Origin: a virus
DNA length: 52,623 bases
Reading direction: 5' to 3' (one strand)
Virus record (IMG/VR): IMGVR_UViG_3300042923_001758
Location: 1-52,623 of that record
Shown: piece by piece, positions 1,565 through 18,980 of the stretch
Layout of the letters: every line of letters begins with the position of its first letter
How positions within the stretch are numbered: the first letter of the stretch is position 1
Notes under the pieces: model-generated
Database searches by the model: none
The model's input: the letters and a program-made list of their open reading frames with translations, nothing else
Told to the model about the DNA's origin: nothing
Translations under genes and position numbers: made by a program

Positions 1565-1595
1565 AGTATTTAGTAAAATAAACTTGATTTGTTAC
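1565..1595 (-). promoter_or_regulatory. Early regulon element, copy A
   Basis: Minus strand GTAACAA, 14 bases, ACTAAATACT. This copy has CGTAAC where the other six have TGTAAC. It precedes the MazF-like gene and directly follows the terminator of the preceding operon. Confidence 0.65.
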
Positions 1596-1599
1596 GTAG

Positions 1600-1623
1600 A
1601 AAAAGCGTCCCTAAATGGAACGC
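1600..1623 (-). terminator. Rho-independent terminator after the dNMP kinase operon
   Basis: On the minus strand GCGTTCC pairs with GGGACGC across a 5-base loop and is followed by TTTTT. It ends the 1629-2880 operon just before regulon element A. Confidence 0.65.
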
Positions 1624-1628
1624 CATGT

Positions 1629-2021
1629 TTATTCGTCTATCTGTCTTGTTTTAGTTTTATGAGTCGAGCCCATATTATGAGTATATTTTAAAGAAAAAAA
1701 TTCTATTTTATCAGCCGGGAGCGGTGTCTCGTGTTTATCCCTAAATCTTATTTGAGTAGTGGACAGTACAGGGTATTCTTTCTTTTTTGATTTGAGTCTG
1801 TCTTTATCTCTAAAGTCGTCACCTAGAATAATATTAGATAGCCTAGTGAGTACGTAAGATTTTGGATATTCTCCTACTGCCTCAAAATACTCCTCTAAAA
1901 GCATATTGATAATCTTATTAAGATCAGCTATAGATATGCCGCGGTTATTCTCTAGGCTTTCTATAATAGTGTCTAGTTTTTCATTAATTGCTTGATAATC
2001 CAGCCCGATAAATCTGTTCAT
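1629..2021 (-). CDS. Hypothetical phage protein
   Basis: This 130-residue protein is not recognised. The N-terminal half looks helical (LDTIIESLENN, LNKIINMLLEEYF). The C-terminal half is basic and low in hydrophobic residues and ends with TKTRQIDE. There is no membrane segment, Cys cluster or nucleotide-binding loop. The ATG at 2021 follows AGGAGGGG. It is the last gene of an operon with the dNMP kinase-like and sigma-4-like genes and is closed by a terminator at 1600-1623. Confidence 0.6.
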   Translation of the reverse strand: MNRFIGLDYQAINEKLDTIIESLENNRGISIADLNKIINMLLEEYFEAVGEYPKSYVLTRLSNIILGDDFRDKDRLKSKKKEYPVLSTTQIRFRDKHETPLPADKIEFFSLKYTHNMGSTHKTKTRQIDE

Positions 2022-2033
2022 TATATACCCCTC

Positions 2034-2336
2034 CTATAGTTGTCTGCTAATGTTGTCCTCTATCTTTTTATCAATGTTAGATAGCTGAAAACTTACCCCC
2101 TGCTGCGTAATATTAAGCGCGTTTGCTACCTCTGTCTGCGTATAGCCTTTTAGATAATATAGGTCTAAAATGCCTGTCTGTCTGCCCGAAAAACCGCACT
2201 CGTTTATAAATTTATCTAAATCGAGGAGTATATCCGCTATACCCGAGAAATTACAGCTATTTATCATAACCGCTTTAAGTTTTTCGTAGCTCATTAATAA
2301 GGATTTAACACGCTCTACTGTATTCATTTTATGCAT
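2034..2336 (-). CDS. Sigma-70 region 4-like HTH protein
   Basis: The 100-residue protein ends in a helix-turn-helix typical of sigma region 4: FSGRQTGILDLYYLKGYTQT followed by EVANALNITQQGVSFQLSNI (about residues 48-90). The N-terminal 45 residues are helical and contain no recognisable region 2, so it cannot be a complete sigma factor by itself. It resembles ArpU-like and YvrI-like phage regulators that act on late genes. It overlaps the dNMP kinase-like gene by 8 bases and is translated from an ATG with GGAGG upstream; an in-frame second ATG lies three codons later. A late-gene activator is a reasonable role but is inferred. Confidence 0.65.
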   Translation of the reverse strand: MHKMNTVERVKSLLMSYEKLKAVMINSCNFSGIADILLDLDKFINECGFSGRQTGILDLYYLKGYTQTEVANALNITQQGVSFQLSNIDKKIEDNISRQL

Positions 2337-2880
2337 GATAATTTGCCTCCGCTCTGACGAGATATAAAACGCTTTCTATCTTTTGATAAAGCTCCTCTAA
2401 TGTGCCATTATTCGAAATTTGATAATCATAGAGCATGGCCTCCGCTTGCTCTTCGGTCTCGTGCTCTAAGTCCGCAGGATTAAAAATGTCCCCGTTCTCT
2501 ACTATTCTTTTAATCTGATCTTCACGGGTAACAGCTACTTTTACCACAATATAGCCATTATCTTTTAAATAAGTATACTCATTGAGTTGTCTTGTATCGG
2601 TAATAATAACATTTCCATATTGATTTTCTTTAAGATAATCGCTTATACTGCGGTCTGTGTAGTTAATCCATACGTTCGGCTCAAAGCTCCTGAAATATTG
2701 GCCTATTCCTTGATACATAGCCCGAGGTTTTCCCTCTGCTACTTTCTCAGGGAAATACTCATTTAAAATATTTCTGATACCCTCAGCAAAAGCAAAACGT
2801 CTAAATCCATAGTTTTCAATTAAATAATTACCAACCGTATCTTTACCACTCCTCATTTTTCCAACTAGTGCAATTTTCAT
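2329..2880 (-). CDS. Deoxynucleoside monophosphate kinase-like P-loop protein
   Basis: This 183-residue protein begins with a P-loop, VGKMRSGKDT (about residues 6-15), followed by YLIENYGFRRFAFA, the pattern of dNMP and adenylate-type kinases. A VIITDTRQLNEY segment near residue 92 resembles the Walker B and sugar-binding region of phage dNMP kinases. Such enzymes phosphorylate dNMPs to dNDPs with ATP, which fits the nearby thyX, dut and ribonucleotide reductase. It is the first gene of a three-gene operon. The ATG follows GGAGGTTTCAAG, and regulon element B lies 60 bases upstream. Confidence 0.65.
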   Translation of the reverse strand: MKIALVGKMRSGKDTVGNYLIENYGFRRFAFAEGIRNILNEYFPEKVAEGKPRAMYQGIGQYFRSFEPNVWINYTDRSISDYLKENQYGNVIITDTRQLNEYTYLKDNGYIVVKVAVTREDQIKRIVENGDIFNPADLEHETEEQAEAMLYDYQISNNGTLEELYQKIESVLYLVRAEANYHA

Positions 2881-2939
2881 CTTGAAACCTCCTAAACACT
2901 TGATTTTATGGGGCTTTGAGGTTTTCTCTCACTCCCTCA

Positions 2940-2970
2940 AGTAATTAGTAAAAAAAGTTGACTTTGTTAC
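2940..2970 (-). promoter_or_regulatory. Early regulon element, copy B
   Basis: Minus strand TGTAACAA, 14 bases, ACTAATTACT (one change from ACTAAATACT). It faces the dNMP kinase operon and physically overlaps the plus-strand promoter of the divergent XRE gene. Confidence 0.65.
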
Positions 2971-2986
2971 ATGGGCTATGTACAAT
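2958..2986 (+). promoter_or_regulatory. Sigma-A promoter of the XRE regulator
   Basis: TTGACT, 17 bases, TACAAT: both hexamers match the consensus at five of six positions. The -35 lies inside the spacer of regulon element B, so the two divergent promoters should compete for polymerase. Confidence 0.75.
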
Positions 2987-2998
2987 ATACTTATAAGC

Positions 2999-3020
2999 GT
3001 AATTCGTTTCAAAGAATTAC
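2999..3020. promoter_or_regulatory. Inverted repeat, probable XRE operator
   Basis: GTAATTC and GAATTAC flank an 8-base centre just downstream of the -10 of the XRE promoter, so a bound protein would block transcription start. The adjoining 13-mer TTATAAGCGTAAT (2991-3003) recurs at 46784-46796 upstream of terS, again next to an ATTAC half-site. Confidence 0.45.
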
Positions 3021-3045
3021 TACAAACTAACACGGAGGACACATA

Positions 3046-3468
3046 ATGGGCGAAATTGAAATATATAAAAAAGAAGATGGTTATAAGGGGTTGGTTCTTT
3101 CAGCATTAAGCGATGGCGGTAGACGTGTTTTAGACATGGCTACGGAAATAAGAATTACATGCAATTTGGACGAGCACCTTAAAGCGCTAGGTCTTACTCA
3201 AGCTGAACTCGCGCAGATAACAGGCATGAGGCAAGCGACCATCTCAGAGCTGGTTACTAAACGTAAAGCAAATGTTTCTATAGCTCATATGCTCGTTTTA
3301 ATGCTTATTCTCAAAATACCTAAATTCTCAGATATGTTCGAGATGACTTTCGACGAAGAAACAGTAGAACAAATGGCTAAAGATCGTAAGGCATGGGAGA
3401 AAAGCAAAAAGATACCCGAAGAAATGGCTGACCTTATGGTGGAAAATGTATTACGTAAAGTTAGATAA
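3046..3468 (+). CDS. XRE/Cro-CI family transcriptional regulator
   Basis: A 140-residue protein with a central XRE helix-turn-helix (LKALGLTQAELAQITGMRQA, then TISELVTKR, about residues 46-75) and a helical C-terminus rich in charged residues (EETVEQMAKDRKAWEKSKK). It is one of the few plus-strand phage genes and is divergent from the dNMP kinase operon. Its sigma-A promoter overlaps the operon's own element. The ATG follows ACGGAGGACACATA. The layout suggests a repressor or switch protein that is autoregulated through the inverted repeat at its transcription start. Whether it is the lysogeny repressor or a lytic Cro-like protein cannot be told from sequence. Confidence 0.75.
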   Translation: MGEIEIYKKEDGYKGLVLSALSDGGRRVLDMATEIRITCNLDEHLKALGLTQAELAQITGMRQATISELVTKRKANVSIAHMLVLMLILKIPKFSDMFEMTFDEETVEQMAKDRKAWEKSKKIPEEMADLMVENVLRKVR

Positions 3469-3474
3469 AAAATA

Positions 3475-3502
3475 CCCGCTGATTAGGCGGGCTTTTCTTT
3501 TA
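3475..3502 (+). terminator. Bidirectional terminator between convergent genes
   Basis: CCCGC, a 7-base loop, then GCGGG, with a T-rich tail on the plus strand and an A-run before it that serves as the tail on the minus strand. It separates the XRE gene from the convergent gene ending at 3500. Confidence 0.75.
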
Positions 3503-4051
3503 TATACAATGACACTCTTCACAAGGAGTCTCACAGTCACAAGGGACGAACTCCTTTTCTGTGAGCGTCATTTCAGCGATTAATATATTATTATTGAAAT
3601 ATCTTAAAAGTTGCTTGCTCTCCTCTGATTTAATCGCATATCTTACACCCTTAATATCTCCGCCCGATACCGCGTCAATCTCGGTGATCTCGTCATCAGC
3701 ATATTCTGACGAGATAGGTTCCGTAGGTAGTTCTATCTCCTCACCCTTTGCGAGCTTATGATAAACTTCGTCATAAAACGGCTGATCCTCGTTATCCTGC
3801 GCCCTTTCGATAGTGCCGTCCTCATTAGCGCTTACTACAACAATAAAAGGCTCAATATTTCCGTTATGCTCTACCGTCATGCGAACGGGTTCGCTGTATC
3901 CCTCAACCATAAAAGCCGTTTCAAATATGACTTGACTCAATTTTATGCTGCCTGTTCTTTGCCCCATCTTATTAAGTGTATCTATTAAAATGCTCTCAAT
4001 TATTTTACTGATTCCCTCTATTTTAATCTCACCGTTAATCTGTATTCTCAT
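3500..4051 (-). CDS. Hypothetical protein with a Cys-rich tail
   Basis: Not recognised. The 183-residue protein is acidic. Its first 90 residues look like an alpha/beta domain (MRIQINGEIKIEGISKIIES), followed by a Glu/Asp-rich linker. The C-terminus is a cluster of five Cys and one His (PCDCETPCEECHCI) that could bind zinc or another metal. It is the last gene of the dut-thyX operon and is closed by the bidirectional terminator at 3475-3502. The ATG follows GGAGGTAGTCATA. Its neighbours suggest a role in early phage metabolism, but nothing in the sequence defines one. Confidence 0.6.
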   Translation of the reverse strand: MRIQINGEIKIEGISKIIESILIDTLNKMGQRTGSIKLSQVIFETAFMVEGYSEPVRMTVEHNGNIEPFIVVVSANEDGTIERAQDNEDQPFYDEVYHKLAKGEEIELPTEPISSEYADDEITEIDAVSGGDIKGVRYAIKSEESKQLLRYFNNNILIAEMTLTEKEFVPCDCETPCEECHCI

Positions 4052-4056
4052 TATGA

Positions 4057-4332: not shown

Positions 4333-4356
4333 AGCTCCGCCCCCTCTATAGAGTTT

Positions 4357-5028
4357 TTATATTATCTCTTTTTTAAGTGGTCTTATTCCGCAGGATTTCG
4401 CCTCGTCGCAGTATCCGAGGCTTACGCATTTAGGGGTCATATGATAAGCGATATAATCCCATCCTTGACCATCCTCCCTATTATCAAGCTCACTAAGCGC
4501 CTGTTTAATGTCTTTTATTAACTGTCTGACCTCATGATAAGCTCTTGAGCATAGTCTTAAATGTGCTAAATGTATAAGCGCTCTAGCGTTAATCTTAAAT
4601 GCGATTTTTGTAGTATGACCGAGCGGTAATATATTCGCTGTATCCTCTTGAGGAATATCGAGAGCAGCAAGTATTTTATAGGTCTCCTTGACCTGCTCCA
4701 TAAGCTCGGTATAAGCCTTTAATGCCTCGGAATTATTCGAGATTTTAGGCGGTATAAAATAGTCCATATTTTCATAATTGATATATCTTGTAGAGGCTTG
4801 CAGCCTACTTGTTCCGATAATATGAGTATAAATCTCACGGATAGCCCGAGCGGAGTATCCGTCAAGCTCTAACACAACGTCTACGAACTCAAAAGTCCTC
4901 GTATGGTTAGCCATTAGACAATGTTTAGCGATCCCCGCCGACGGTTCCGAGTCCCAACAAATAGCTGCTACCTCTCCGACTAACTCTAAAGGGTTCTTTG
5001 TATAGTCTAAAATTCTTACTCTACCCAT
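4357..5028 (-). CDS. thyX: FAD-dependent thymidylate synthase ThyX
   Basis: ThyX makes dTMP from dUMP using methylene-tetrahydrofolate, with FAD and NADPH doing the reduction. The 223-residue length fits the family. The STRYINYENMDYFIPP segment (about residues 80-95) and the later NARALIHLAHLRLCSRAYHE helix, which matches the conserved Arg-rich dUMP-binding helix, support the call. The usual RHR of the signature RHRxxSxxxxSxR is replaced: here it reads YTHIIGTSRLQASTRY, so the flavin-binding motif is divergent although the S...STRY part is intact. It overlaps dut by 8 bases, which couples removal of dUTP to synthesis of dTMP. The ATG follows AAAGGAGGACGTGATTA. Confidence 0.85.
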   Translation of the reverse strand: MGRVRILDYTKNPLELVGEVAAICWDSEPSAGIAKHCLMANHTRTFEFVDVVLELDGYSARAIREIYTHIIGTSRLQASTRYINYENMDYFIPPKISNNSEALKAYTELMEQVKETYKILAALDIPQEDTANILPLGHTTKIAFKINARALIHLAHLRLCSRAYHEVRQLIKDIKQALSELDNREDGQGWDYIAYHMTPKCVSLGYCDEAKSCGIRPLKKEII

Positions 5029-5497
5029 TAATCACGTCCTCCTTTTCGTTGCTTGAGCCAAAACCGCCCGATCTATGCTTGTGGATAACGGAGTCATTGT
5101 CAGCCGTAAGGTATTTCACAAATATGCCCTGCACTATTCGCTCGCCCTCCTGTATAACTACCATCCTGTCGCTCGTATTGCATAGCGCTATTCCGATATT
5201 GCCGTCGTTGTCCTCATTTCCATAGTAAGAGGAGTCAATTACTCCGACTTGATTTACGAGCTTTAATCCTTTTTTAGTCGCGATCGAGCTTCTAACGTAT
5301 AGATTTAAAACCTCGTCGCGCAGCATATAGGCTTTTATATTAGTCCATATAATCACTGTTTGATTTGGTTTAAAAAGTACGTCTATAGGAGAATAAAAAT
5401 CGTAACCCGCGCTCCTGTCGTCTGCTCTTTTTGGGAGCATTCCGTCTTTCTCGTAATGTAAAGCCTCAATAGTAACGTGTTTAAATCCTCTTTTCAT
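5021..5497 (-). CDS. dut: Trimeric dUTPase (dUTP diphosphatase)
   Basis: Hydrolyses dUTP to dUMP and pyrophosphate, keeping uracil out of DNA and feeding ThyX. All five motifs of the trimeric family are present in order in 158 residues: SAGYDFYS, RSSIATKKGL, GVIDSSYYGNEDNDGNIGI, GERIVQGIF and the C-terminal RSGGFGSS arm that closes over the active site. Motif 3 has a slightly longer loop than usual (GNEDNDGN). It is the first gene of a four-gene operon and overlaps thyX. Regulon element C lies 44 bases upstream of the ATG, and GGAGG is present. Confidence 0.92.
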   Translation of the reverse strand: MKRGFKHVTIEALHYEKDGMLPKRADDRSAGYDFYSPIDVLFKPNQTVIIWTNIKAYMLRDEVLNLYVRSSIATKKGLKLVNQVGVIDSSYYGNEDNDGNIGIALCNTSDRMVVIQEGERIVQGIFVKYLTADNDSVIHKHRSGGFGSSNEKEDVING

Positions 5498-5540
5498 GTT
5501 GTGCCTCCTAAAATGTTTTTGTTTGGAGCAGTCTCGCTCA

Positions 5541-5571
5541 AGTATTTAGTAAAGTTTTTAGGAGTTGTTAC
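5541..5571 (-). promoter_or_regulatory. Early regulon element, copy C
   Basis: Minus strand TGTAACAA, 14 bases, ACTAAATACTTGAG, in front of the dut-thyX operon. Confidence 0.7.
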
Positions 5572-5580
5572 ACGTAAAAT

Positions 5581-5609
5581 AAAAAAAGAGAGGAATAAAT
5601 CCCCTCTAT
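5581..5609 (-). terminator. Terminator of the ribonucleotide reductase gene
   Basis: On the minus strand AGAGGGGA pairs with TCCTCTCT (one G-T pair) followed by a T7 run. It starts within the last codon of the reductase gene. Confidence 0.75.
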
Positions 5610-7648
5610 CTAATAGGACACGCTCCGCCGGCACATTCTGACGTTTCAAGTTCGTGTTCCTCTCCATGCTCATATTTAGTTAAAAGACTCGCATTAAAAG
5701 ATACCATGCTGTTAATTCTATCTTTGTACTCCTCTTTTGATATTGTCTCATAAGGTAATAGAGGATAATAACTATCCTCAAGAGATAAGAAAGTAATACC
5801 GATTACGCTATCCCAATTTTGATATACCCATGCCTCCACGTCCTCCCATTCATTAGCTCTAACTGATACTGTGATACTGGCGTTATGATCTACGTAGCAC
5901 TCCATAAACATTTTATAAATTTCTAGTTGCTCGATAGCTGATACGTCGTATTTAGTTTTACCGTCAGGAGCTTTAACAGGGAACTCGATAACTAGCGTCG
6001 TCGCAGTCTCTATCGTCTGCCCGTTCTCGGGATGAACTGGATAGCCAAGCTCTTTACATACTTTTACTAGTGCGTCGTCTGCGTTTATTCTGATACGGCG
6101 AACATAATAAGGCGCATGACTAAAATGTAGCCCGCTTGATACTGTGGGGAGTAGCGAGAGAGTTCCCTCGGGTTTTATGGTTGTAATAAGCAGCGATTTA
6201 TTTAATCCTAACTCCTCCGCTATCCTATCCGCTGACAATCTCGCCACGTCTCGAAGCTCACGTAGCAGAGCTCTTTGTTCTTTGTTAGATAATCCGAGAG
6301 CATTAATCCCGTCTTGATAGCCTGTTAAAGATACCCCTAGCAGTCTGTCTCTTTTTAGCTGCTTATCCCATTCGGGAAGCTCAAGCTCTACAAGAGTCAT
6401 CCTATAGGACGCTCTCGCATTAAGATATTGAGCATTTAAAAGCTTCTTTCTGTCGAGTTCTCCATCCTTAACGAATGCCATAAGGTTAAGCGTTACAAGA
6501 TTACAAGTTTGTCTATCATCAAGAAGCACCTCTCCACATGGGTTCGTACCTTTAAAATTAGGATTCCTACGTTCTGCCTCACGACCATTATAAAAAGCAG
6601 GCTCACCGCTAAACCTCATTTGCTCAAACTGCCAAGACCAAAATTTACGTTTAGGCTTTTCAAAATGAATAATAGTATTGTTAGATAGTGTCCTATGGAT
6701 AATATCAAGATTAGGAACCCAATTCCCCATGGAGTCCTGCGAGTAAAGGCCATTTTTTGCTTTTATACATTCCTCGTCATTAGCGTCAATTAACCCGATT
6801 TCTGCGGAGCGTCTAACGCCTCCCACTACGACATTCTCTGCGATAATATTCGCAAAATCTAGCATATCTATAGCTCGTACTTTTCCGTAATCTTCCCTCC
6901 CGAGTCTTGTTTTTAATACCTTATCAAACTTTAAAAACATATTTTTTAAGCTATCGTGTCCCGACGCTGTCCCTCCGAACCGCGCTAATCTTTCACCTCT
7001 AGGTCTAACGCTATCGTAGTCTATAACAATCTCTAAAACATGTCTGTATTCTGATCTTGTAATAATGTCAAAGAATAATTTTAGAGCTTGAGTCCATCCC
7101 TCTTTAGAGTCCCCTACATGAATAATTGCTTGAGCGTTTTTGTGCGTAAATGTAAGCGCTGTCGCCTCTAATCTTTCCGATTTTTGTTTTGCGCTGTATG
7201 CTTTATGAGTGAGCACTACATATCTAATTTTAGGGAGATATTTTACGTCCTTCTCAAGAGCCCTAAATCCTGCGCCTGTTCCTACCATGAGCGCATAGAA
7301 TAACTCTTTTAATTTATCGAATGAGTCTAGGACTACTAAACTACAGTTGAAGTTTGCAAGTGCATGGTCGTTGACCGCAGGCGTTCCGCCTATCCAAAAA
7401 GTACGACCGCTTAAGAATGTACGTAGATTGTATATATTATCGAAAAGCTCCTCTGCCTCGGATATCGTTGTGTTTGGATCTAAACTGCAATTATATTCAA
7501 CCGCTCTTTGTACAGTCTCAAGCCATGTTTCGCGTCTACCTTTTTCTGCCAACCATCTGCTATAAGTACGATAATACACAAAGCTACCGAGCGGAGCCAT
7601 AACCTCACTATTTTTGTATCTGCTTAAAAATTCCTTTGTAAGTAACAT
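5606..7648 (-). CDS. nrdJ: Class II (adenosylcobalamin-dependent) ribonucleotide reductase
   Basis: A monomeric class II reductase like Lactobacillus RTPR, which uses coenzyme B12 to make the thiyl radical and reduces ribonucleoside triphosphates. The 680 residues are slightly shorter than RTPR (about 740). Visible features are the first substrate-site Cys in NFNCSLVVLD (near residue 100), the active-site block NPCGEVLLDDRQTCNLVTLN (radical Cys, catalytic Glu and the second redox Cys), and the C-terminal redox pair CAGGAC in SECAGGACPIR, which resembles the RTPR tail. Class II enzymes work with or without oxygen. It stands alone between element D and its own terminator. The ATG follows AGGAGGTAAGTCA. 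Confidence 0.9.
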   Translation of the reverse strand: MLLTKEFLSRYKNSEVMAPLGSFVYYRTYSRWLAEKGRRETWLETVQRAVEYNCSLDPNTTISEAEELFDNIYNLRTFLSGRTFWIGGTPAVNDHALANFNCSLVVLDSFDKLKELFYALMVGTGAGFRALEKDVKYLPKIRYVVLTHKAYSAKQKSERLEATALTFTHKNAQAIIHVGDSKEGWTQALKLFFDIITRSEYRHVLEIVIDYDSVRPRGERLARFGGTASGHDSLKNMFLKFDKVLKTRLGREDYGKVRAIDMLDFANIIAENVVVGGVRRSAEIGLIDANDEECIKAKNGLYSQDSMGNWVPNLDIIHRTLSNNTIIHFEKPKRKFWSWQFEQMRFSGEPAFYNGREAERRNPNFKGTNPCGEVLLDDRQTCNLVTLNLMAFVKDGELDRKKLLNAQYLNARASYRMTLVELELPEWDKQLKRDRLLGVSLTGYQDGINALGLSNKEQRALLRELRDVARLSADRIAEELGLNKSLLITTIKPEGTLSLLPTVSSGLHFSHAPYYVRRIRINADDALVKVCKELGYPVHPENGQTIETATTLVIEFPVKAPDGKTKYDVSAIEQLEIYKMFMECYVDHNASITVSVRANEWEDVEAWVYQNWDSVIGITFLSLEDSYYPLLPYETISKEEYKDRINSMVSFNASLLTKYEHGEEHELETSECAGGACPIR

Positions 7649-7690
7649 TGACTTACCTCCTGTGTGTTTAAGTCTGAGACATTAGCCTCA

Positions 7691-7721
7691 CTTATTTAGT
7701 AAAAAAACTGGAGGTTGTTAC
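7691..7721 (-). promoter_or_regulatory. Early regulon element, copy D
   Basis: Minus strand TGTAACAA, 14 bases, ACTAAATAAG, 43 bases before the nrdJ start codon. Confidence 0.65.
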
Positions 7722-7838
7722 ACAAAAAATTATTTTTTTGCAGTGAATAAGTATCTGCTTGTTTATGGATAGGCTAAAAAAAGTAATTGTAGAAAGGGTA
7801 TACTACTTTGATAGGCTTCCTAATAAAACTTTCTATAT

Positions 7839-10486: not shown

Positions 10487-12784
10487 TTATGCTACAAGCT
10501 CGAACGCCCTACGTCCTGCTCCATTTTCTAACCATGTTCTTTTAGGAATACCCTCGCCCCATCTTATAGACACCTCAGTATCAACTTTATAAGGAACCTC
10601 AAGCGGGATAGTGTTCATCATTATGTGCTCGATTTCTGCTATCTCCTCCGCTGCTACAGTCTCGGGAACCTCTATCAAAATTTCATCGTGTACTGTAGCG
10701 AGTAGTTTCCACTCGTCACCCTTTTTCTCTAACCATTCACAAACGCCAATCATAGCGAGTTTCATAATGTCAGCGCTTGAACCCTGTATAACGGCGTTTA
10801 CACTCTGTCTTGCGACTCTGTTATAATCCTTTGCGATATCCCCATACTCACGCTTTAGCGCAAACGGTAGTTTAGTTTTCCATACCGAGCCCTCTAGCAC
10901 TTTGCCAAGTGCTTTTTCTACCTTTTCCGATACTGCCCTATACCTCTGTACCGTGTTTTTATGGCCTATAAATCTACGTTTACGCCCGTAAAGCGTTTCT
11001 ACATAACCAATATTGTCCGCCATTTTGTTAGTAGTGTCGATGAATTCTTTAACCTTTGGATAGGACTCGTAAAAGTCAGCGATAAATTCATCCGCCTCCT
11101 CTACAGTAATATCAAGCTGCCCTGCAAGGGTAAAGTTAGAGGTTCCATACATTACGGCGAGTAATCCTGTTTTCATCATCTTTCTATATTTGCTACCGTC
11201 TCCGCACTCCTCAATGGGCTTTTTAAATACCTTGCTCGCTAGGGTAGCATAAAGGTCTTTCCCGTCCTTGTACGGATAGCGGAGCTCCTCGTCTCCTGAT
11301 ATATGAGCAAGTACCCTCGGCTCAATCTGCGAGTAATCAATACCGATTATGAGTTTACCGTCAGGAGCTATGATAATCTTCCGAGCGTCATAAGGTAAGT
11401 TTTGGAGGTTCGGTTCACGACTTGCAAAGCGCCCCGTAACTGTTGCCGTTTGGTTAAATTGACCGTGGAGTCTGCGGTCTCTTTTGTGTACCTTTAACGG
11501 TAAAGGGTCTATATAGGTTGATAGAAGTTTGTTAAGCTCTCGATATTTGAGGAGAGTTGCTATTCCATTATGTTTTGTTTTAAGGATTTCTAGCGTGTCT
11601 GCGTCTACGCTCCTTTTATTGGATACGTCGGGGAGACCGAGCTCGTCGTAGAGCTTTTCTGCTAACTGCTGATTACTGTTAATATTGATACTCCCGAAAT
11701 AATAAAGGAGTTTAGACTCTAATTCTCTTACCTCTTTTGTTAACTTATCTCCGTAAGTTTTGGCGTAGTTTTGGTCTATCAAAAATCCGTTCTTTTCCAT
11801 TTCAATACATACGTTAGTTATCTTTTGCTCAATGTCAAAGTAGAGTCTTTTTAACTGCGGAACCCGATGCATCTGGTCGAGCTGCCATTTATAAAACTGA
11901 TAACATAGGTGTGTATCTTTACATGCGTAAATGTGCCCTATATCTAGCGGAGTTCCCTCAAACCCTCCGCGACCGAAAAGTTCTTCGTAAGTTGACGACT
12001 TATCATCAAAGCCGAAGTGCTTACCATATTTTGTGGCGAGCTTTTTAAGTGCGTAGCTCATTTCGTTCTCGTTAAGCAGCGTCATTCCGACCATAGTATC
12101 AAAGTGAATACCTCGAAGAATTACGCCATCATTACGCAGGATATGAGCGTCAAACTTTGCATTGTGGAGGATTTTTTTTAATCTCCTATTCTCAAGGTGA
12201 GACTTGATTTTCTTGAATACAAAACCTTTCGAGAGTTGCTTCTCTCCTGTTGTGTGTCCATAAGGGATATAACAATGCACATCTGCTTTTGGCAGCGTCA
12301 TGGACATTCCAACGGTGTAATCATTGTCGAAGTTAACACCTGTTGTTTCCGTATCGAAGCCGATTTCATCCTCATAATTTAATAGGTTAAGAATTTCGCA
12401 AAAATCCTGCTCCTCTACAATTAAGCGGTAGTTATCGGGCTTTTCTGCTATCATTTTCGCGATAGTTGCCTCTTTGCGTAACTCTCGGAGCGTAGCGTAT
12501 AGCTTTAGAGCATGAGTCTTTGTGAACTTATCAAGCGACTCGACATAGGTTCCCATTTCTCCTTTTTCTACCGCCTCTTTGACCGCGATCAATCTCTCAC
12601 TGTCTAGGTCTGATAGCTTAGTTTTTAAAATGGCTTTCTTTTCTGTTCCTGTATGGCTCTTGTAACCCTTTTCCCATATCTCGCCCCAAGTGGGAATATA
12701 CTTTGCAGCTTTCCTTTGTGCGTCTTTGACTCTTTGTTCTTTTTCCCTTTCGTCCTCCTGTGGCAAATTAATCTTAATTTCCAT
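10487..12784 (-). CDS. polA: Phage family A DNA polymerase with 3'-5' exonuclease
   Basis: I choose the ATG at 12784 (behind AAAGGAGCTGAATCA) over an in-frame TTG 18 bases upstream, giving 765 residues. The proofreading exonuclease motifs are Exo I FDTETTG (near residue 145), Exo II NAKFDAHIL and Exo III ACKDTHL. The polymerase palm follows: GRFASREPNLQNLP, motif A IGIDYSQIEPRVLAHISGD, motif B KTGLLAVMYGTSNF, and motif C ATVHDEILIEVP with the catalytic His-Asp. There is no 5'-nuclease domain, as in T7-type replicative polymerases. It is the first gene of a four-gene operon controlled by element E, which ends only 18 bases before the start codon. Confidence 0.92.
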   Translation of the reverse strand: MEIKINLPQEDEREKEQRVKDAQRKAAKYIPTWGEIWEKGYKSHTGTEKKAILKTKLSDLDSERLIAVKEAVEKGEMGTYVESLDKFTKTHALKLYATLRELRKEATIAKMIAEKPDNYRLIVEEQDFCEILNLLNYEDEIGFDTETTGVNFDNDYTVGMSMTLPKADVHCYIPYGHTTGEKQLSKGFVFKKIKSHLENRRLKKILHNAKFDAHILRNDGVILRGIHFDTMVGMTLLNENEMSYALKKLATKYGKHFGFDDKSSTYEELFGRGGFEGTPLDIGHIYACKDTHLCYQFYKWQLDQMHRVPQLKRLYFDIEQKITNVCIEMEKNGFLIDQNYAKTYGDKLTKEVRELESKLLYYFGSININSNQQLAEKLYDELGLPDVSNKRSVDADTLEILKTKHNGIATLLKYRELNKLLSTYIDPLPLKVHKRDRRLHGQFNQTATVTGRFASREPNLQNLPYDARKIIIAPDGKLIIGIDYSQIEPRVLAHISGDEELRYPYKDGKDLYATLASKVFKKPIEECGDGSKYRKMMKTGLLAVMYGTSNFTLAGQLDITVEEADEFIADFYESYPKVKEFIDTTNKMADNIGYVETLYGRKRRFIGHKNTVQRYRAVSEKVEKALGKVLEGSVWKTKLPFALKREYGDIAKDYNRVARQSVNAVIQGSSADIMKLAMIGVCEWLEKKGDEWKLLATVHDEILIEVPETVAAEEIAEIEHIMMNTIPLEVPYKVDTEVSIRWGEGIPKRTWLENGAGRRAFELVA

Positions 12785-12801
12785 TGATTCAGCTCCTTTC
12801 A

Positions 12802-12833
12802 AGTATTTAGTAAAACTTGATAGGGTTTGTTAC
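12802..12833 (-). promoter_or_regulatory. Early regulon element, copy E
   Basis: Minus strand TGTAACAA, 15 bases, ACTAAATACTTGA. The very short distance to the polymerase start leaves room only for the AAAGGAG site, which limits where transcription can begin. Confidence 0.7.
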
Positions 12834-12869
12834 ATAAATTAAGAGAAAAAGTTTTAAATAAGCAAGCGC

Positions 12870-12898
12870 AAAAAAAATAGAGCCCTTTTTAAGAGCTC
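12870..12898 (-). terminator. Terminator after the ssDNA-binding protein gene
   Basis: On the minus strand GAGCTCTT pairs with AAGGGCTC around an AAA loop and is followed by TATTTTTTTT. It ends the sigma-ssb operon directly before element E. Confidence 0.8.
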
Positions 12899-12940
12899 CT
12901 CAATACGTTATTTGTGATTTAAGTTATTACTATATAATAA

Positions 12941-13642
12941 TTAAATTACGCTGATATCCTCGTCCTCGGTATCAATCGGCGTTCCGTTATCCTCTGCTGC
13001 CGAGTCGCTAATCATTACATCAAAGAACTGTGCTACTGGAAAGCCCGCATCTTTTAAACTCTTTACTTGTCCCTCGTAGTCACGAGCTTGTAAAACTGCC
13101 TCATAGAATGAAACCTCTACCTCCTGACCATCGAACTTTTCAAAGCTCACTCTATCCTCGTCAGTTACCTTTTTCTCAGGAACTACTTTAAGAGAATAGG
13201 CCGTAGCTGTTTTTGTACCCTTACGACTGAATGTGAATACTGCCTCGCTAAAATCGTAGTCACTTGCGAGCTCCTCGATTTCTGCAATTAATGAGGTCGC
13301 TTGATTTTTTGATGCGTCGAATACCCTTAACTCTCCGCTCTTTAAATCCGAAAACGCGAATAAATAACGCTTTTTAGCATATATTCTCTCGAACTCCTCT
13401 ATTCCGCTTTTGCTTGCCTCACATAGAGCGCATTTCTTACCCTCGGGAGCAATACAAGGCTGCGTATAAATGCCGAGGTTAAAATCTCCGTGCGCCTTAT
13501 ACTCTACGTAATCCTCTGCTGATAATAGTCTCACTTTAATTGAGTCTCCATCCTTGAGTTTAAGGAACACGTTTTTAAGGTCAACCTTTTTTGTCTCTGC
13601 TGATTTTCTCGCATCCTTACCTTTTGCTGTAATAATTGACAT
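12941..13642 (-). CDS. Phage single-stranded DNA-binding protein (gp32-like)
   Basis: The 233-residue protein resembles phage T4-gp32-type ssDNA-binding proteins. It has a basic N-terminus (AKGKDARKSAETKKVDLKNV), a core with FLKLKDGDSIKVRLL, a possible zinc site (PCIAPEGKKCALC, about residues 62-75) and an acidic C-terminal tail (DTEDEDISVI) of the kind that recruits replication partners. It would coat ssDNA at the fork and in recombination. It lies 75 bases downstream of the sigma-like gene and shares its element F. The ATG follows AAGGAGAATGATAAT. Confidence 0.7.
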   Translation of the reverse strand: MSIITAKGKDARKSAETKKVDLKNVFLKLKDGDSIKVRLLSAEDYVEYKAHGDFNLGIYTQPCIAPEGKKCALCEASKSGIEEFERIYAKKRYLFAFSDLKSGELRVFDASKNQATSLIAEIEELASDYDFSEAVFTFSRKGTKTATAYSLKVVPEKKVTDEDRVSFEKFDGQEVEVSFYEAVLQARDYEGQVKSLKDAGFPVAQFFDVMISDSAAEDNGTPIDTEDEDISVI

Positions 13643-13716
13643 ATTATCATTCTCCTTAAGTTATATTTAGGGTGTCTTTTAATGTCCTAACCTTTTTTGG
13701 ACTATATAGGCAGCGG

Positions 13717-14382
13717 TTATACCGCGAATCCCCTTTCGTTAAGGAACTTTGAAAACAAGTCTTTTGCTCTTGAAACTCTTGTTCTTACGGTTCCGTAGCT
13801 TTCTGTTACATCTACATAAATGCTCAAGTATGCCTCTTTTTTAGCTTCTTTATCGTTGCTGTGCGTAAAGGTAGCCACAACTACCTCATACTCTCTCGGA
13901 TACTCTTTTTTAAACTCCGCAAGGATTACGTTTAAGAGATTGCTTTTGAGCTCTCTTTCAATGTTTAATTCAACGTCGGAGGACTTGTCCTCTATTAAAT
14001 CACCCATAAAGCCGCCCTCCTCACCGTCAAGCTCAAGATAAAGAGATAAATAGCCGTTTGTTGGAGAGTGTTTCTTGCTGCCTTGCTTTCTTATGATGTT
14101 ATTAGTATCAAGTTTCGCTACGCCATAGTACCAATTATTAAAGTTGCCTTTGCCCGCTTCGTATGAGTCTATAGCTTTTAAGAGTGACTCGAAAGATATT
14201 ATGCTTTCGATCTCGAAAGTATCTATAGAAAAGGCTCTCTGTTTATGCGTTACAACCTCTCGTAATACTCCGAGTACAATAGGTCTTACAATATTTACTA
14301 TCTCTGTGAATACTGCGTCGCTCTTTGTTGCTTTAAAGTCCTCTACCATTTGGTTCAATTGGATAATTTTAATCGCTGTCAT
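13717..14382 (-). CDS. Phage-encoded sigma-70-family-like factor
   Basis: Starting at the ATG at 14382 (AAGGGGGAT upstream; a TTG at 14412 is less likely), the product is about 221 residues. Residues 15-100 look like sigma region 2: VNIVRPIVLGVLREVV, then IESIISFESLLKAIDSYEAG, then KGNFNNWYYGVAKLDTNNII, where KGNFxNWxxG resembles the -10-recognition helix. Residues 165-215 look like region 4 (AYLSIYVDVTESYGTVRTRV, SRAKDLFSKFL). It is the best candidate to recognise the TGTAAC / ACTAAATAC element found before seven early operons, including its own. It is co-transcribed with the ssDNA-binding protein. The sigma identity is inferred from pattern and could be weaker than it looks. Confidence 0.6.
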   Translation of the reverse strand: MTAIKIIQLNQMVEDFKATKSDAVFTEIVNIVRPIVLGVLREVVTHKQRAFSIDTFEIESIISFESLLKAIDSYEAGKGNFNNWYYGVAKLDTNNIIRKQGSKKHSPTNGYLSLYLELDGEEGGFMGDLIEDKSSDVELNIERELKSNLLNVILAEFKKEYPREYEVVVATFTHSNDKEAKKEAYLSIYVDVTESYGTVRTRVSRAKDLFSKFLNERGFAV

Positions 14383-14411
14383 AATTTTTAAATCCCCCTT
14401 TGATTTGCTCA

Positions 14412-14443
14412 AGTATTTAGTAAAGCGACCCCCTGTTTGTTAC
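14412..14443 (-). promoter_or_regulatory. Early regulon element, copy F
   Basis: Minus strand TGTAACAA, 15 bases, ACTAAATACTTGAG, 30 bases before the sigma-like gene. It implies autoregulation if that protein recognises the element. Confidence 0.7.
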
Positions 14444-14501
14444 ATGGGTTTTGCTGTCACTTTTTGACATAACTAAATACAAGAGATTCAAAGGAAGGTA
14501 C

Positions 14502-14533
14502 AAAAAAAGCTCCTCAATCCGAAGATAAGGAGC
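14502..14533 (-). terminator. Terminator with TTCG loop
   Basis: On the minus strand GCTCCT pairs with AGGAGC, with an inner helix closing a TTCG tetraloop and a T7 tail. It lies at the far end of the non-coding region after the primase gene, directly before the sigma operon, so it may end a non-coding transcript. Confidence 0.7.
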
Positions 14534-14536
14534 ATA

Positions 14537-15053
14537 GCGCTTTTGTTAATTCCTACCAAACAACTAGGAATTAAACTTAAAAAAATACCCGAATGAGTAG
14601 GTAGTCCCCGTTAAAAGACCGCTATTCGTTCAGGAGCGCCGTTTGTTGAATACTGGCATAGTTTTTCGATATTTCTATCGAATGAAATAGACATAAGTAC
14701 GGGGAATATTTTAAATCTTTTTTGCTCTGTACTTGATGTCTAATGCCGATTTTGTATTCTCCCTATTTGAAGTCTTATATTCAGTTATGTACTATAGGGA
14801 TTTAAAAATTTCGTCTGTGCTCTATATTGTTTTAGAACACGAAACGGCTTGACTTTATTAGGTTTTCTAAATAATATGTTGTATGATTTTCTTTTATACT
14901 CAAAAGCGTATCAATGAACGTTCTCTTATACTAACACATTTCTTTTATACGGACTATAGTATAATAGAATGTAATTTATACCATAATACGTTATACTCTT
15001 AAGCGTAATGCCTTTATAGTAAAAATGCTTTATTTCGCTAGAAATTCGGGCAT
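14537..15053. other. Non-coding region downstream of the primase gene
   Basis: There is no open reading frame with a ribosome site here. The right part (14894-15000) holds TTATAC repeats. The left part contains several hairpins, for example TTCGATA/TATCGAA at 14665-14682, GTGCTCT/AGAACAC near 14822-14845 (one mismatch), and a short TACCT/GGGTA stem with a T7 tail near 14585-14605 on the minus strand. Terminators flank it on both sides (15054 and 14502). It could encode a small RNA, act as a replication origin, or both. Confidence 0.4.
14894..15000. repeat. TTATAC short repeats, possible origin iterons
   Basis: TTATAC occurs at 14894, 14926, 14945, 14976 and 14991 on the plus strand, with an inverted GTATAA at 14959. 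The flanking bases are often TCT or TTT before and TC after the motif. The region is very AT-rich and lies beside the primase-helicase operon. Iterons at a phage origin and tandem promoter elements are both possible. Confidence 0.4.
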
Positions 15054-15093
15054 AAAAAAAGAGGAGATTAGGCTCTTTAACAGCTTAATCTCC
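15054..15093 (-). terminator. Terminator of the replication operon
   Basis: On the minus strand GGAGATTA pairs perfectly with TAATCTCC, followed by TCTTTTTTT. It overlaps the last codons of the primase gene. Confidence 0.8.
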
Positions 15094-16039
15094 AAAGAAA
15101 ATGATGGATGGAACTTGTGTTTTTTACTACCTCTGATATCTGTTCGGGAGGGATTTCGTTTACGTCTTTATACTGGGGAGGAATTAAAAGCTCTTTAAGC
15201 TCCGCGACTCCTGCGAAACGCTCCGCTATCTGTCGTTTAAATTTCTGTCCTACTGTGTCGTTATCTGTTGCAATTACTAATTGCTCAATCGGTGAGTCGT
15301 AGATTAATTTGTGCTGCACGTCCGTGATATTTGCTCCCCCGAACGCTATCGCGGGTATCCCGTGAGACCAAAGATAAAGCGCGTCTATTTCTGCTTCGAC
15401 TACGTATACCTCATTGTAGTTTCCTCGGTAAATAAAGTTTAATCCGTAGACGTGACTTTTCAGTGCTTGCCCTCCGCTCATATACCAAAATCTTTTATCA
15501 CTCACGCTACGATATTTTATATTTATGACCTTTCCTTTAACGTCCATCCATGGTAGAGTTATCGCTTTCGATCCCCTGTCAAAACCTATTTTAAAAGCTT
15601 TTTGCACTTTTTCGGATATGCCTCTCCCTTCTAAATATCCATGTCTAAATTGATACTTCTTAAGCTCATCAAATGGTACTATGATTGGCTCTGGTTTATC
15701 TATCTCAATAGATAAAGTCAGTTTAAGTGCATCTGTATCCGCTAATATCTCTCCGTACTTTTCAACTAGATAATCCTCAACCTCCTCAAAGGATACATTC
15801 ATAAAGTAGGATAGCAGTCTTGTAAAATTACCCTTTTTCCAACGATCGTCCGTAGAGCCCGAGTCTATCCACATTCCATCCTCAAGATTAACCGCAAAAC
15901 TCGGACGACGCTCATCTCTAAATGGACTACAGGCGAGAAGTTTCCCACCTCTTTCTGATACTCTTTTAAGTGAGTCAACATATGGAGTGAGCTCCTCTAA
16001 ATAGTTAATGTCTAGCTCTTGTCCTTTTATCTTATACAT
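15077..16039 (-). CDS. DnaG-like primase with TOPRIM domain
   Basis: A 320-residue primase. The N-terminal 90 residues follow the layout of the CHC2 zinc domain (ACSPFRDERRPSFAVNLEDG), but only one Cys remains and the His and distal Cys pair are missing, so zinc binding is unlikely. The catalytic core has the DnaG-type FKIGFDRGSKAITLPW segment and a TOPRIM domain: EVYVVEAEIDALYLWSHG (catalytic Glu) and LVIATDNDTVGQ (the DxD motif). It would lay RNA primers for the phage fork together with the helicase. Its start overlaps the helicase stop codon. It is the last gene of the operon and is closed by the terminator at 15054-15093. Confidence 0.8.
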   Translation of the reverse strand: MYKIKGQELDINYLEELTPYVDSLKRVSERGGKLLACSPFRDERRPSFAVNLEDGMWIDSGSTDDRWKKGNFTRLLSYFMNVSFEEVEDYLVEKYGEILADTDALKLTLSIEIDKPEPIIVPFDELKKYQFRHGYLEGRGISEKVQKAFKIGFDRGSKAITLPWMDVKGKVINIKYRSVSDKRFWYMSGGQALKSHVYGLNFIYRGNYNEVYVVEAEIDALYLWSHGIPAIAFGGANITDVQHKLIYDSPIEQLVIATDNDTVGQKFKRQIAERFAGVAELKELLIPPQYKDVNEIPPEQISEVVKNTSSIHHFLWRLSC

Positions 16040-17328
16040 TAGAAATACTCTACCTCCCCTACAGCCTTACTTGTAGCTCTACTTTCTAAAATGTATCCTC
16101 TATTAAAATCACAATGCATCTCTAATTGTTTTCCTACGTGTGGCTCTCTACATTTAGCAAGTAGCAGCGCCCCCACTCCGTCGTGTTGGTCGAAAGTTAA
16201 GACTGTAGACGCGTCCTGTATTACCGCAATCGTCTCGGAGTATTGGTCAATACGTGGGGGAGTAACAATTCTTACGCCTGTTTCGTCCTCTGCTCTATTT
16301 TCCTTTTCTGCGCTAGTTGGCGTTTGATGAATAACGAGCCCTGCGACCTTGTGTCTCCCAAAAATTTGACGCAGCATACGGGAAGTATTAGCCATGTTGT
16401 TTCGGTTTCCGTCAGTTCCCTTATGTGTCATAAGGTTAAACCCGTCGATAATAACCATCTTTACATTAGGATTTGCTTGTAAATCTGACTCAATAACGCC
16501 TACGGTTAAGCCCTGTGGTAAATCCTCCATACACTTCACTATATAAGGAAATTTCTCATTCTCTGCCTTAAACTCCCCAAGGTATTTAAAATATTCCTCC
16601 TCGTTATTAAGCGTACCTCTGCGGATTGCAACGTTGTTAAAATGCCCGTTCAGCGTGTCTAGCCTAAATATCTGCTGTGACTTTGATAACTCGGGTGAGT
16701 AGTGAAGTACCCCGAAGTTATTACGCCAAGCTTCGACCGCTATCTGTGAGCCTATCCATGACTTACCCCTGTTCGTGTAGGCTTGCAGGAGAATATAGTC
16801 CCCAATCTCAAAACCTCCTCCGAGCCATTCGGTTAAGCTCGGATAAGGAGTCGGTATATACTGTCCTGTTCGTATCTCTTTGCTCTCCTCGTACCATTCT
16901 CGGCGCTCCTGTCCGTTCGTTGCGTAGTTGGTTCCTGTAGAGCTCGACGCGTTCGCCACGTCTTTAATTCTTACTGACTCCTCCGCCAGCCAATTAATAA
17001 ATTCGGTTCCGTTTAGAGTCTCGAACTTCTGCCCCGCCTGTTTTTGTAATAATTCGTATGCTTGACGTTTCGCTGTATTGGCCTTTAAGCTCTTACAAAG
17101 ATAGGGGAATGTATCGAATACCTCGGGCATATAGTCAAAGTCCTTATACTCAGCTACTACAGTCCTATAGTCGGGAGTTTCTCCGTACTGTCTGATATAT
17201 TCATTGATGAACTTATAAGCTTCTTTAAGGCTATAGAAGTCGTTCTCCTGTACGTTGTGCTTATTGAGTACGTACCCGTTACGCTCCTCTAATACCTTTG
17301 ATAATAATTTCTTTTCAATCAAGCTCAT
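16039..17328 (-). CDS. DnaB-like replicative helicase
   Basis: A RecA-fold hexameric helicase of 429 residues. A helical N-terminal domain (residues 1-120) is followed by PSLTEWLGGGFEIGDYILLQ and Walker A in AYTNRGKSW (near residue 187). A VKMVIIDGFNLMTH segment is the Walker B equivalent, and VAGLVIHQTPTS supplies the sensor Gln of the DnaB family. It unwinds DNA ahead of the phage polymerase and is loaded by the DnaC-like protein encoded just upstream. Both ends overlap neighbours: TAATG junctions with the loader gene and with the primase gene. The ribosome site GGGAGGATTATTCTA lies within the end of the loader gene. Confidence 0.85.
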   Translation of the reverse strand: MSLIEKKLLSKVLEERNGYVLNKHNVQENDFYSLKEAYKFINEYIRQYGETPDYRTVVAEYKDFDYMPEVFDTFPYLCKSLKANTAKRQAYELLQKQAGQKFETLNGTEFINWLAEESVRIKDVANASSSTGTNYATNGQERREWYEESKEIRTGQYIPTPYPSLTEWLGGGFEIGDYILLQAYTNRGKSWIGSQIAVEAWRNNFGVLHYSPELSKSQQIFRLDTLNGHFNNVAIRRGTLNNEEEYFKYLGEFKAENEKFPYIVKCMEDLPQGLTVGVIESDLQANPNVKMVIIDGFNLMTHKGTDGNRNNMANTSRMLRQIFGRHKVAGLVIHQTPTSAEKENRAEDETGVRIVTPPRIDQYSETIAVIQDASTVLTFDQHDGVGALLLAKCREPHVGKQLEMHCDFNRGYILESRATSKAVGEVEYF

Positions 17329-18098
17329 TAGAATAATCCTCCCTTTCTTTTGTCTGCTCCGACTAGCTCCACAGGCACCGCCATACCCTCTATACGGCTT
17401 GCTATTCTATCTCCTAACATGTCTACAAGTGCCTCTATAGTGATATTTGACGTGTATAAAGTTGTAAGCCCATTAGTTGCTCTCGTGTCAATTATCTCGT
17501 AAAGTTCGTTAAGATACGCCTCTGTACCACCCCTTACTGCGATATCATCGAGTATAAGCAGGTCTACGCTAGTCATAGATTTTTTGTATCTTGAAAACTT
17601 ATAGCTTGCTTTTTCCTTTACAGTAAAATCACCCTTAAATTGATCGTTGTAGATATTCTGATACTCGCTCGCTCTCATAAATAGCGCAGGATTAGAGTTT
17701 ATGCGGTTCTCCCCACTTACATGGAGTTTGACGCGCCATATTACAAACTCATTTAATAACGTAATTGCGGTTGTTGTCTTGCCAGTTCCTGTTCCGAACT
17801 TGTTCGCCTCTGTCGGTACTGAAAAGAGATAGAGTCCTACGTTTCTATCGAGAATAAACTCGCCCATGCTCTCGGCGTACTTCTTGATACGCTTATAAAC
17901 TTGCGGGTTATCTTTATCTATAGGAAGATTTTCGAGCCTACAATCGTCATACTTTTTCGGTACGTTCCTAGTGCGCCAAAATCCACCATCCCCGTTTAGT
18001 CCATGCATATAGGTGTAGTACGTACAAAGGGGATTGCAGCGCTCCTCATTCCCGTACTGCTTGCATTTAGAACTAAATATGCAATTATTTATAGACAT
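17328..18098 (-). CDS. DnaC/IstB-like helicase loader ATPase
   Basis: An AAA+ ATPase of 256 residues. It starts with a Cys-rich segment (NNCIFSSKCKQYGNEERCNP, four Cys in the first 25 residues) that may bind zinc. Walker A is GTGTGKTTT (near residue 105), Walker B is LLILDDI, and an LTTLYTSNIT sensor 1 and DRIASRI (box VII arginine finger region) follow, as in DnaC and DnaI. It would load the DnaB-like helicase encoded next. The ATG follows AAAGGGGAGGATTAAAAA, which also contains the stop of the initiator gene. Confidence 0.82.
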   Translation of the reverse strand: MSINNCIFSSKCKQYGNEERCNPLCTYYTYMHGLNGDGGFWRTRNVPKKYDDCRLENLPIDKDNPQVYKRIKKYAESMGEFILDRNVGLYLFSVPTEANKFGTGTGKTTTAITLLNEFVIWRVKLHVSGENRINSNPALFMRASEYQNIYNDQFKGDFTVKEKASYKFSRYKKSMTSVDLLILDDIAVRGGTEAYLNELYEIIDTRATNGLTTLYTSNITIEALVDMLGDRIASRIEGMAVPVELVGADKRKGGLF

Positions 18099-18114
18099 TT
18101 TTTAATCCTCCCCT

Positions 18115-18849
18115 TTATTCTCCGAATAAGCGCTTTAATTTGTCGCTAGTCGCCCTTTGAGCCTTATCTCTTTGCACGTTGTGCTGCTTAATTGTGGCTA
18201 CCTCTTTGCGTCTTTGAGCCACTACCTCCGCTGCTCTTTTAGCGAGCCAATTCGAGAGCATAGTAATTGACGGTCTAGGGTATTCACGTTTAGCCCATAA
18301 TTTCGAGTAGTCCTTAATTGAGACCTCTATAATCTCTGCGAGCTCGTCGTCCGAGAATTTCCCGATTAACCCTTTCTTAATGACTGCTATATCACGGCTC
18401 CAATTAATGACATAGCTTATGCTGAACTCCTCTTGATAAAGTCTAGCGAATAGTTTTGCGATATCTTTAGCTGTGAGCTTGTTCTGGTTAATCTCCTCTA
18501 TAAATACCTCTACATTTACGGTCTTACTTTCACCAATTGAGATATCCGTTAAAAAAATATCATTAACCTTAATTATTTCCCTCTGCTTTCCGTCCACTAG
18601 AGCAATAACTCTTTTTAATAACGGCTCACCGTTGTAATTAATGGTCTCTAATGATTTAATATCTGATCCCGTAGTTTTGCGGGTTCTGCCTGTTATCTCT
18701 GCAAGTCTTGTAATAGTCATCTTTGCAATCCCGTTATCATCTGAATTTGCTACGGTGTGAAGCAAGGTAAAGACTGCTCCGTTTGGTACTTTATCAAATA
18801 CTCCTAGTTTCACTATCTTACTAAATGCGTTGTTTGCCTTAACTGCCAT
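18115..18849 (-). CDS. Replication initiator with winged helix (DnaD/replisome-organiser type)
   Basis: 244 residues. The first 80 form a winged helix-turn-helix (VFTLLHTVANSDDNG, MTITRLAEITGRTRKTTGSD) like those of phage replisome organisers. The C-terminal part is helical and basic (RAAEVVAQRRKEVATIKQ, RATSDKLKRLF). As the first gene of the initiator-loader-helicase-primase operon, it most likely binds the phage origin and recruits the loader-helicase complex. The ATG follows AAGGAGGTTACAAC, and element G lies 101 bases upstream, leaving an unusually long leader. Confidence 0.72.
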   Translation of the reverse strand: MAVKANNAFSKIVKLGVFDKVPNGAVFTLLHTVANSDDNGIAKMTITRLAEITGRTRKTTGSDIKSLETINYNGEPLLKRVIALVDGKQREIIKVNDIFLTDISIGESKTVNVEVFIEEINQNKLTAKDIAKLFARLYQEEFSISYVINWSRDIAVIKKGLIGKFSDDELAEIIEVSIKDYSKLWAKREYPRPSITMLSNWLAKRAAEVVAQRRKEVATIKQHNVQRDKAQRATSDKLKRLFGE

Positions 18850-18949
18850 GTTGTAACCTCCTTAAAGTCAAACGATTAAGACCTACATAACTCGTCAATT
18901 CCTCAACTGCCGTTGAGATAATTAACTCGTTTTTTGCTAGTGCCTTTCG

Positions 18950-18980
18950 AGTATTTAGTAAGCTAATGTCTATTTGTTAC
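18950..18980 (-). promoter_or_regulatory. Early regulon element, copy G
   Basis: Minus strand TGTAACAA, 14 bases, ACTAAATACTCGA, heading the replication initiation operon. Apart from this element and the terminator at 19165, I see nothing else in the non-coding stretch 18850-19204. Confidence 0.7.

Follow-up and report, generated by a model that had tools for sequence, protein, structure and literature searches.

The DNA analysed here is a 52,623-nt stretch (the window) of the IMG/VR virus record IMGVR_UViG_3300042923_001758, which comprises most of a siphovirus-like prophage inserted in the comM gene of a clostridial genome. A two-box element, TGTAACAA-N12/13-TTACTAAATACTTGA, is repeated in it before replication, nucleotide and integrase genes, and one copy stands before the gene of a phage sigma factor. 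A position weight matrix (PWM) consisting of box TGTAACAA, box TTACTAAATACTTGA and a 12-13 nt gap gave 31-37 bits at exactly eight window sites and at most 15.2 bits elsewhere in the window. The eight copies, the sigma-factor gene and the gene behind it are as follows.

1566..1596, minus strand: element copy CGTAACAA...TTACTAAATAC, 31 nt before the gene 1061-1534; a terminator (1624-1604) lies directly upstream
2941..2971, minus strand: element copy, ACTAATTAC variant, 60 nt before the dNMP kinase gene 2329-2880
5542..5572, minus strand: element copy, 44 nt before the dUTPase gene 5021-5497, which is followed by ThyX (4357-5028); terminator 5607-5587 upstream
7692..7722, minus strand: element copy, ACTAAATAA variant, 43 nt before the B12-type ribonucleotide reductase gene 5606-7648
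12803..12834, minus strand: element copy, 19 nt before the likely ATG (12783) of the DNA polymerase A gene 10487-12802; terminator 12899-12879 upstream
14413..14444, minus strand: element copy, 30 nt before the ATG of the gene for a sigma factor of 221 amino acids (aa)
18951..18981, minus strand: element copy, 101 nt before the replication-initiator-like gene 18115-18849, which is followed by helicase loader, DnaB and primase genes; terminator 19193-19172 about 190 nt upstream
50714..50745, plus strand: eighth element copy, heading a 64-aa open reading frame (50784-50978) and the serine integrase gene 51046-52623
13717..14382, minus strand: phage extracytoplasmic function (ECF)-type sigma factor, 221 aa, sigma2 and sigma4 domains; proposed reader of the element
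12941..13642, minus strand: ssDNA-binding-like protein behind the sigma gene (phrog_9721, E 1.2e-6), used as a synteny marker

Four of the seven minus-strand copies are exact; one carries CGTAAC, one ACTAATTAC and one ACTAAATAA. All eight are in sense orientation to the genes that follow, 19-101 nt from the start codons, and none contains a dyad. Most copies are followed by TTGAG or TCGAA, which makes the element longer than first reported. It is made up of two boxes, a free spacer that varies by 1 nt, and a conserved third block that resembles a start region. Its exact form occurred in none of 100 shuffles of the window, and GTAACAA-N11-14-TTACTAA occurs eight times in the window against a shuffle mean of 0.02. 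The first-pass annotation had listed seven minus-strand copies close before first genes and none before structural genes. Each of these copies is present (1566-1596 through 18951-18981) and the absence from structural genes holds, but the eighth copy, on the plus strand, had been overlooked. Its statement that the element heads all early operons stands for the replication and nucleotide operons, but not for the helix-turn-helix (HTH) regulator gene 19652-20014, which has no copy. The integrase operon also belongs to the set, which is better read as sigma-dependent (delayed-early or middle) than as early.

How specific is the element to the phage? The host background consisted of 0.32 Mb of stretches together with genome-wide pattern searches. 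The best PWM score in the 0.32 Mb of host contigs outside the prophage was 17.7. Of 392 genomes of the host order, 390 lack the pattern TGTAACAA-N11-14-TTACTAAATA; it occurs in the window's own, with the prophage copies only, and in one with a same-genus contig that carries a piece of a related prophage. When up to 3 mismatches of the 19 specified bases were allowed, the host genome gave three extra 3-mismatch and two extra 2-mismatch matches, compared to 5 and 1 for a reversed control pattern, which places the three 3-mismatch matches at the control level. Both 2-mismatch copies lie on contig C28: one precedes a further serine integrase by ~340 nt, and the other adjoins a resolvase gene that is 83% identical to window 38383-39065. 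The element thus appears phage-specific in the motif scan that the first-pass annotation had suggested, with nothing beyond the control level in host DNA outside prophage-like contigs. A search of viral contigs with the exact element found one 4-kb contig; the same kind of search with the small sigma protein found no match, and the early region had no nucleotide match among phage records. The C28 region (11878-15477) is a second prophage remnant in the same genome, with the resolvase gene and with an element copy ahead of its serine integrase. The enzyme of the prophage inserted in comM is likewise a serine integrase; comM is interrupted at G000:C23:20830, 706 nt leftward of the window, and what appears to be the same gene is interrupted in a same-genus genome (L044 10977-12305).

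Evidence that the copies are promoters comes from their surroundings. A sense sigma-A-like site (at least 9 of 12 matches to TTGACA-16/18-TATAAT) is present beside none of seven of the eight copies, the region of the eighth copy being judged by eye. The sole copy with such a site just upstream is the one at 2941 (TTGAAA-17-TATATT, 3012-2984). The early region overall has no excess of sigma-A-like sites, 50 being found and 52 expected. At the DNA polymerase gene, a Shine-Dalgarno sequence begins ~5 nt past the end of the element. As a result, the element itself must be, or overlap, the promoter, because no other fits between. In addition to the terminators listed above, which adjoin the copies at 1566, 5542 and 12803 immediately, a hairpin with a T run (~14533-14509), terminator-like by eye, lies ~65 nt before the copy at 14413.

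Could a master repressor of the phage instead bind the element, with operators that overlap host-sigma promoters at every lytic operon? Repressor sites of this type are known in mycobacteriophage L5 as stoperators. Another precedent is the SPBRE site of SP-beta, which is repeated at the lytic operons of a temperate phage as the window element is, but is the operator of MrpR, a repressor with a tyrosine-recombinase fold (PMC10516654). The window also encodes the HTH regulator, whose own operon lacks a copy. However, seven of the eight copies have no host-type promoter beside them for a repressor to block, and there is no space for one at the polymerase copy. Two boxes with a spacer that varies by 1 nt, a position close to the start of the gene and a third block like a start region are all traits of promoters. 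The second box also differs from phage to phage, although the sigma gene is syntenic in these phages (see below). The repressor-operator reading is the main rival and is improbable; the doubt that the first-pass annotation had cast on it, from the lack of a dyad, is reinforced by the lack of separate promoters. As a further alternative, the element could be a signal in the 5'-leader RNA or a site for an activator, and conservation does run past the second box into the presumed leader (TTGAG/GTGAA). However, no Rfam family matches the element, its spacer shows no conservation, and the short gap after each terminator would still have to hold a promoter, which makes this alternative extremely unlikely.

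The proposed reader of the element is the 221-aa protein. In single-sequence searches it gave weak matches to Sigma70_r2 (E 0.037) and phrog_1740 (E 0.006), and against bona fide ECF sigma factors of the host family it gave E-values of 1e-3 to 6e-7, varying with search size. A profile of 44 phage members matched SigW in the PDB at 3.9e-10 over nearly the full length (columns 17-198), WhiG at 4e-11, and other sigma factors. This profile contained phage members only, without any known sigma factor; it replaced an earlier one that had included three bacterial ECF sigma factors. An AlphaFold2 model (pLDDT 82, pTM 0.49) consists of two helical blocks joined by a low-confidence linker. Its best PDB folds are nearly all sigma factors, although the uncertain arrangement of the domains keeps the E-values modest (3e-3 at best). 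The layout is that of ECF-type (group 4) sigma factors, namely sigma2 and sigma4 without sigma1.1 or sigma3, and the length is within the typical 180-230 aa. No anti-sigma gene, which is typical of ECF sigma factors but not defining, is adjacent; the neighbours are primase and ssb. The A+T-rich intergenic stretch between the primase and sigma genes (window 14860-15050) contains about five AGTATAARAGAA-like repeats and is a candidate origin or operator.

An iterated profile detected a homologue of this sigma factor between primase and ssb/polymerase in nearly all of the relatives retrieved via DNA polymerase, ~45 phages. Among the homologues is gp52 of the Bacillus subtilis phage 268TH002, which is annotated as an RNA polymerase sigma factor; SepSecS and other stray Pfam matches on gp52 were dismissed as chance. 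The 268TH002 sigma gene directly follows aimR, with one element copy near the aimR end (L063 13967-16103), and arbitrium signalling may feed into the sigma switch in this phage. A Paludifilum prophage locus has two members of the sigma family, at L082 5831-6445(-) and 7095-7985(+).

Furthermore, the window contains a second, smaller sigma-like protein with an adjacent partner.

2034..2336, minus strand: sigma4-only protein, 100 aa; phrog_5767 'sigma factor' 8e-11, phrog_3512 4e-7, Sigma70_r4 1e-5
1629..2021, minus strand: partner gene of the small sigma4 protein, phrog_13088; kept adjacent in 268TH002 and KLEB27-1

The pair is gp84/85 in 268TH002 and gp92/94 in KLEB27-1. One alternative is that these two proteins form a split sigma factor that reads the element in place of the 221-aa protein. 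The sigma4-only protein is the better annotated of the two as a sigma factor, and its gene belongs to the operon that the copy at 2941 precedes. However, it has no recognisable domain 2 for a -10 box, its gene is at the end of the early region, a frequent place for late regulators, and it is the 221-aa sigma gene that carries the element in 11 of 13 phages. A split sigma factor is therefore very improbable as the reader, and the pair is a possible candidate for a late-gene regulator. The left-end operon, also headed by a copy, encodes a weak MazF-like match (1061-1534) and an ArdA antirestriction protein (411-896).

Evidence linking the 221-aa sigma factor to the element also came from related phages. 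Relatives were retrieved via DNA polymerase from Heliobacteria, Thermoactinomycetes, Bacillaceae, Paenibacillaceae and uncultured hosts, and were examined as pieces of ~11-28 kb (42 kb for 268TH002). De novo dyad counting that was blind to the window motif identified a repeated two-box element of like build in several of them. In total, an analogous element was found in 12 relatives, at 2-9 copies each against shuffle means of 0.00-0.14; some of the patterns were set after the sequences had been seen, and those copy counts are descriptive.

L107: GTCACA...CGCAACAC, 8 copies
L108: GTCACA...CAACA/ACAC, 7-8 copies
L109: GTCACAA...GCAACATG, 6 copies
L115: GTCACA...CCACAAATA, 9 copies
L106: GTCACAA...CGCTATTTGA, 3-4 copies
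L105: GTCACAA...CGGTTATTAAG, 3 copies
L103: GTCACAA...TGAATAAG, 2 copies
L074: GTNACAA...GCGACATTGATAA, 2 copies
L024: GTCAC...CGTTG, 4 copies (a simple direct-repeat search in this relative was uninformative)
L025: GTGACAC...GTGTGTAATAG, 4 copies
L112: GTGAC...TTCGTA, 4 copies
268TH002: GTCC...TACGCATC, 4 copies

The common build is a conserved GTnAC box, a free spacer, and a second box that is private to each phage. The sigma gene is headed by an element copy in 11 of the 13 phages, the window included. Identity within and between phages was 0.93 and 0.73 for the first box, 0.30 and 0.28 for the spacer, and 0.76 and 0.46 for the second box, the last value being obtained after taking the best of five shifts. 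As judged from these sequences, such a pattern would be expected if the element is contacted at both boxes and the -10 box changes from phage to phage. The result of a sigma-anchored scan, compared with shuffled controls, was clear for the window (7 versus at most 3), L115 (6 versus 2) and L112 (4 versus 2), and suggestive for L108, L107, L106 and L025.

Taken together, the eight copies are very probably promoters of a phage-encoded, autoregulated ECF-type sigma factor. The first-pass annotation had proposed a sigma-type promoter other than sigma-A, and this view gains from the lack of sigma-A sites, the sigma gene immediately after one copy, the presence of this gene with an analogous element in a dozen relatives, and the nearly identical promoter sequence of Salmonella phage 7-11.

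Several observations weigh against this interpretation. The 221-aa sigma factor alone misses the Pfam cut-off (14.3 bits versus 24). The first sigma factor must be made by read-through or from a host promoter; candidate sites are the sigma-A-like ones at 3012-2984 and, before the HTH gene, at 20158-20116. The sigma-anchored scan found no repeated element in many distant Bacillus/Paenibacillus relatives that have a sigma-like gene; it appears that either the link between sigma and element is not universal or the scan was underpowered on pieces of 11-22 kb, and these relatives were not counted as support. Lastly, a convergent copy is oddly placed in four relatives. The facing copies are L107 3466(+)/3581(-), L115 2834(+)/2981(-), L108 3752(+)/3862(-) and L109 737(+)/893(-), 110-155 bp apart and just upstream of a replication-initiator-like gene; in three of the four the plus copy shares a GGGGGTTGTGA-like spacer. 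Convergent promoters before the initiator gene suggest an antisense leader or an origin function.

How would the sigma factor act? The sequences and positions of the copies, their co-occurrence with the sigma gene, and the homology of its product suggest a mechanism. TGTAACAA would be the -35 box contacted by sigma domain 4, and (T)TACTAAATAC, 15-16 nt after it, would be the -10 box contacted by domain 2. The TTGAG stretch would be the start region, with transcription starts predicted 5-10 nt downstream of ACTAAATAC. On induction or infection, the sigma factor from 13717-14382 would capture the host core RNA polymerase and fire all eight promoters together. The regulon would include replication initiation, the sigma operon with ssb, DNA polymerase, ribonucleotide reductase, dUTPase/ThyX, the dNMP kinase with the second sigma4-like protein, the left-end operon and the integrase operon. 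Because one promoter copy precedes the sigma factor's own gene, the factor would amplify itself. In the relatives, the sigma factor and the -10 box would have changed together into private pairs, with the -35 GTnAC nearly constant.

Phage sigma factors, ECF-type ones included, are already known. The host stress regulators SigW and SigX have the same sigma2-sigma4 layout, and the -35 box of SigX, TGTAAC, resembles the first box; they differ in having anti-sigma partners and other -10 boxes. Likewise, the sigma types and promoter sequences of SPO1, a lytic member of Herelleviridae, differ from those of the window. SPO1 gp28 and gp34/33 are similar in that they form a middle/late phage sigma cascade with its own promoters in a Gram-positive host (roles in PMC9429907). 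The sigma factors of SP10 (g120), Wbeta and Fah are also phage-encoded in Bacillota, but they are SigF/SigG-like and act on host sporulation genes, and SP10 g120 is dispensable for the phage (PMC9429907). Phage phiEco32 gp36 is an ECF-like sigma factor for middle and late genes, as proposed here; however, it has no domain 4, its single-box promoters (tAATGTAtA) have no -35 box, and the phage is lytic (PMC8948821). The sigma factor gp47 of phage 7-11 has mapped late promoters, GTAAtg-(16)-aCTA, with transcription starting 6-9 nt past the -10 element (PMC8948821). Like the window protein, it is a phage sigma factor with domains 2 and 4; it acts on the host core and serves eight promoters, as the window protein would. 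The window element, GTAACA-(15/16)-ACTA in eight copies, fits the consensus GTAA...-(16)-.CTA, although the phages are unrelated. The phage-family profile matched gp47 at E 2e-4 and 7.5 bits in a one-sequence search; the two are distantly alike and both of the sigma70 type. Unlike the window prophage, 7-11 is a lytic Salmonella podovirus; its promoters drive late genes, and no such promoter was seen ahead of its sigma gene.

In the open-access literature, no report was found of an ECF-type sigma factor with a replication, nucleotide and integrase regulon in temperate Gram-positive phages, or of a private -10 series. Regulons have been mapped for few phage sigma factors, most of which belong to lytic phages. 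The temperate-phage family described here would provide a natural set of matched sigma factors and promoters, with a constant -35 box and a changing -10 box. The long-standing question of sigma-promoter co-evolution thus becomes testable with about a dozen pairs, one of them from a B. subtilis phage. The proposed switch would explain how prophage replication is turned on and would supply orthogonal promoters for Gram-positive hosts. A broader and tentative possibility is that, in a large family of temperate Gram-positive phages, lytic commitment is made by a self-amplifying ECF-type sigma switch whose fast-diverging sigma/-10 pairs keep co-resident prophages from firing each other's replication genes. 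If true, this would be a sigma-based orthogonality comparable to the repressor-based immunity classes.

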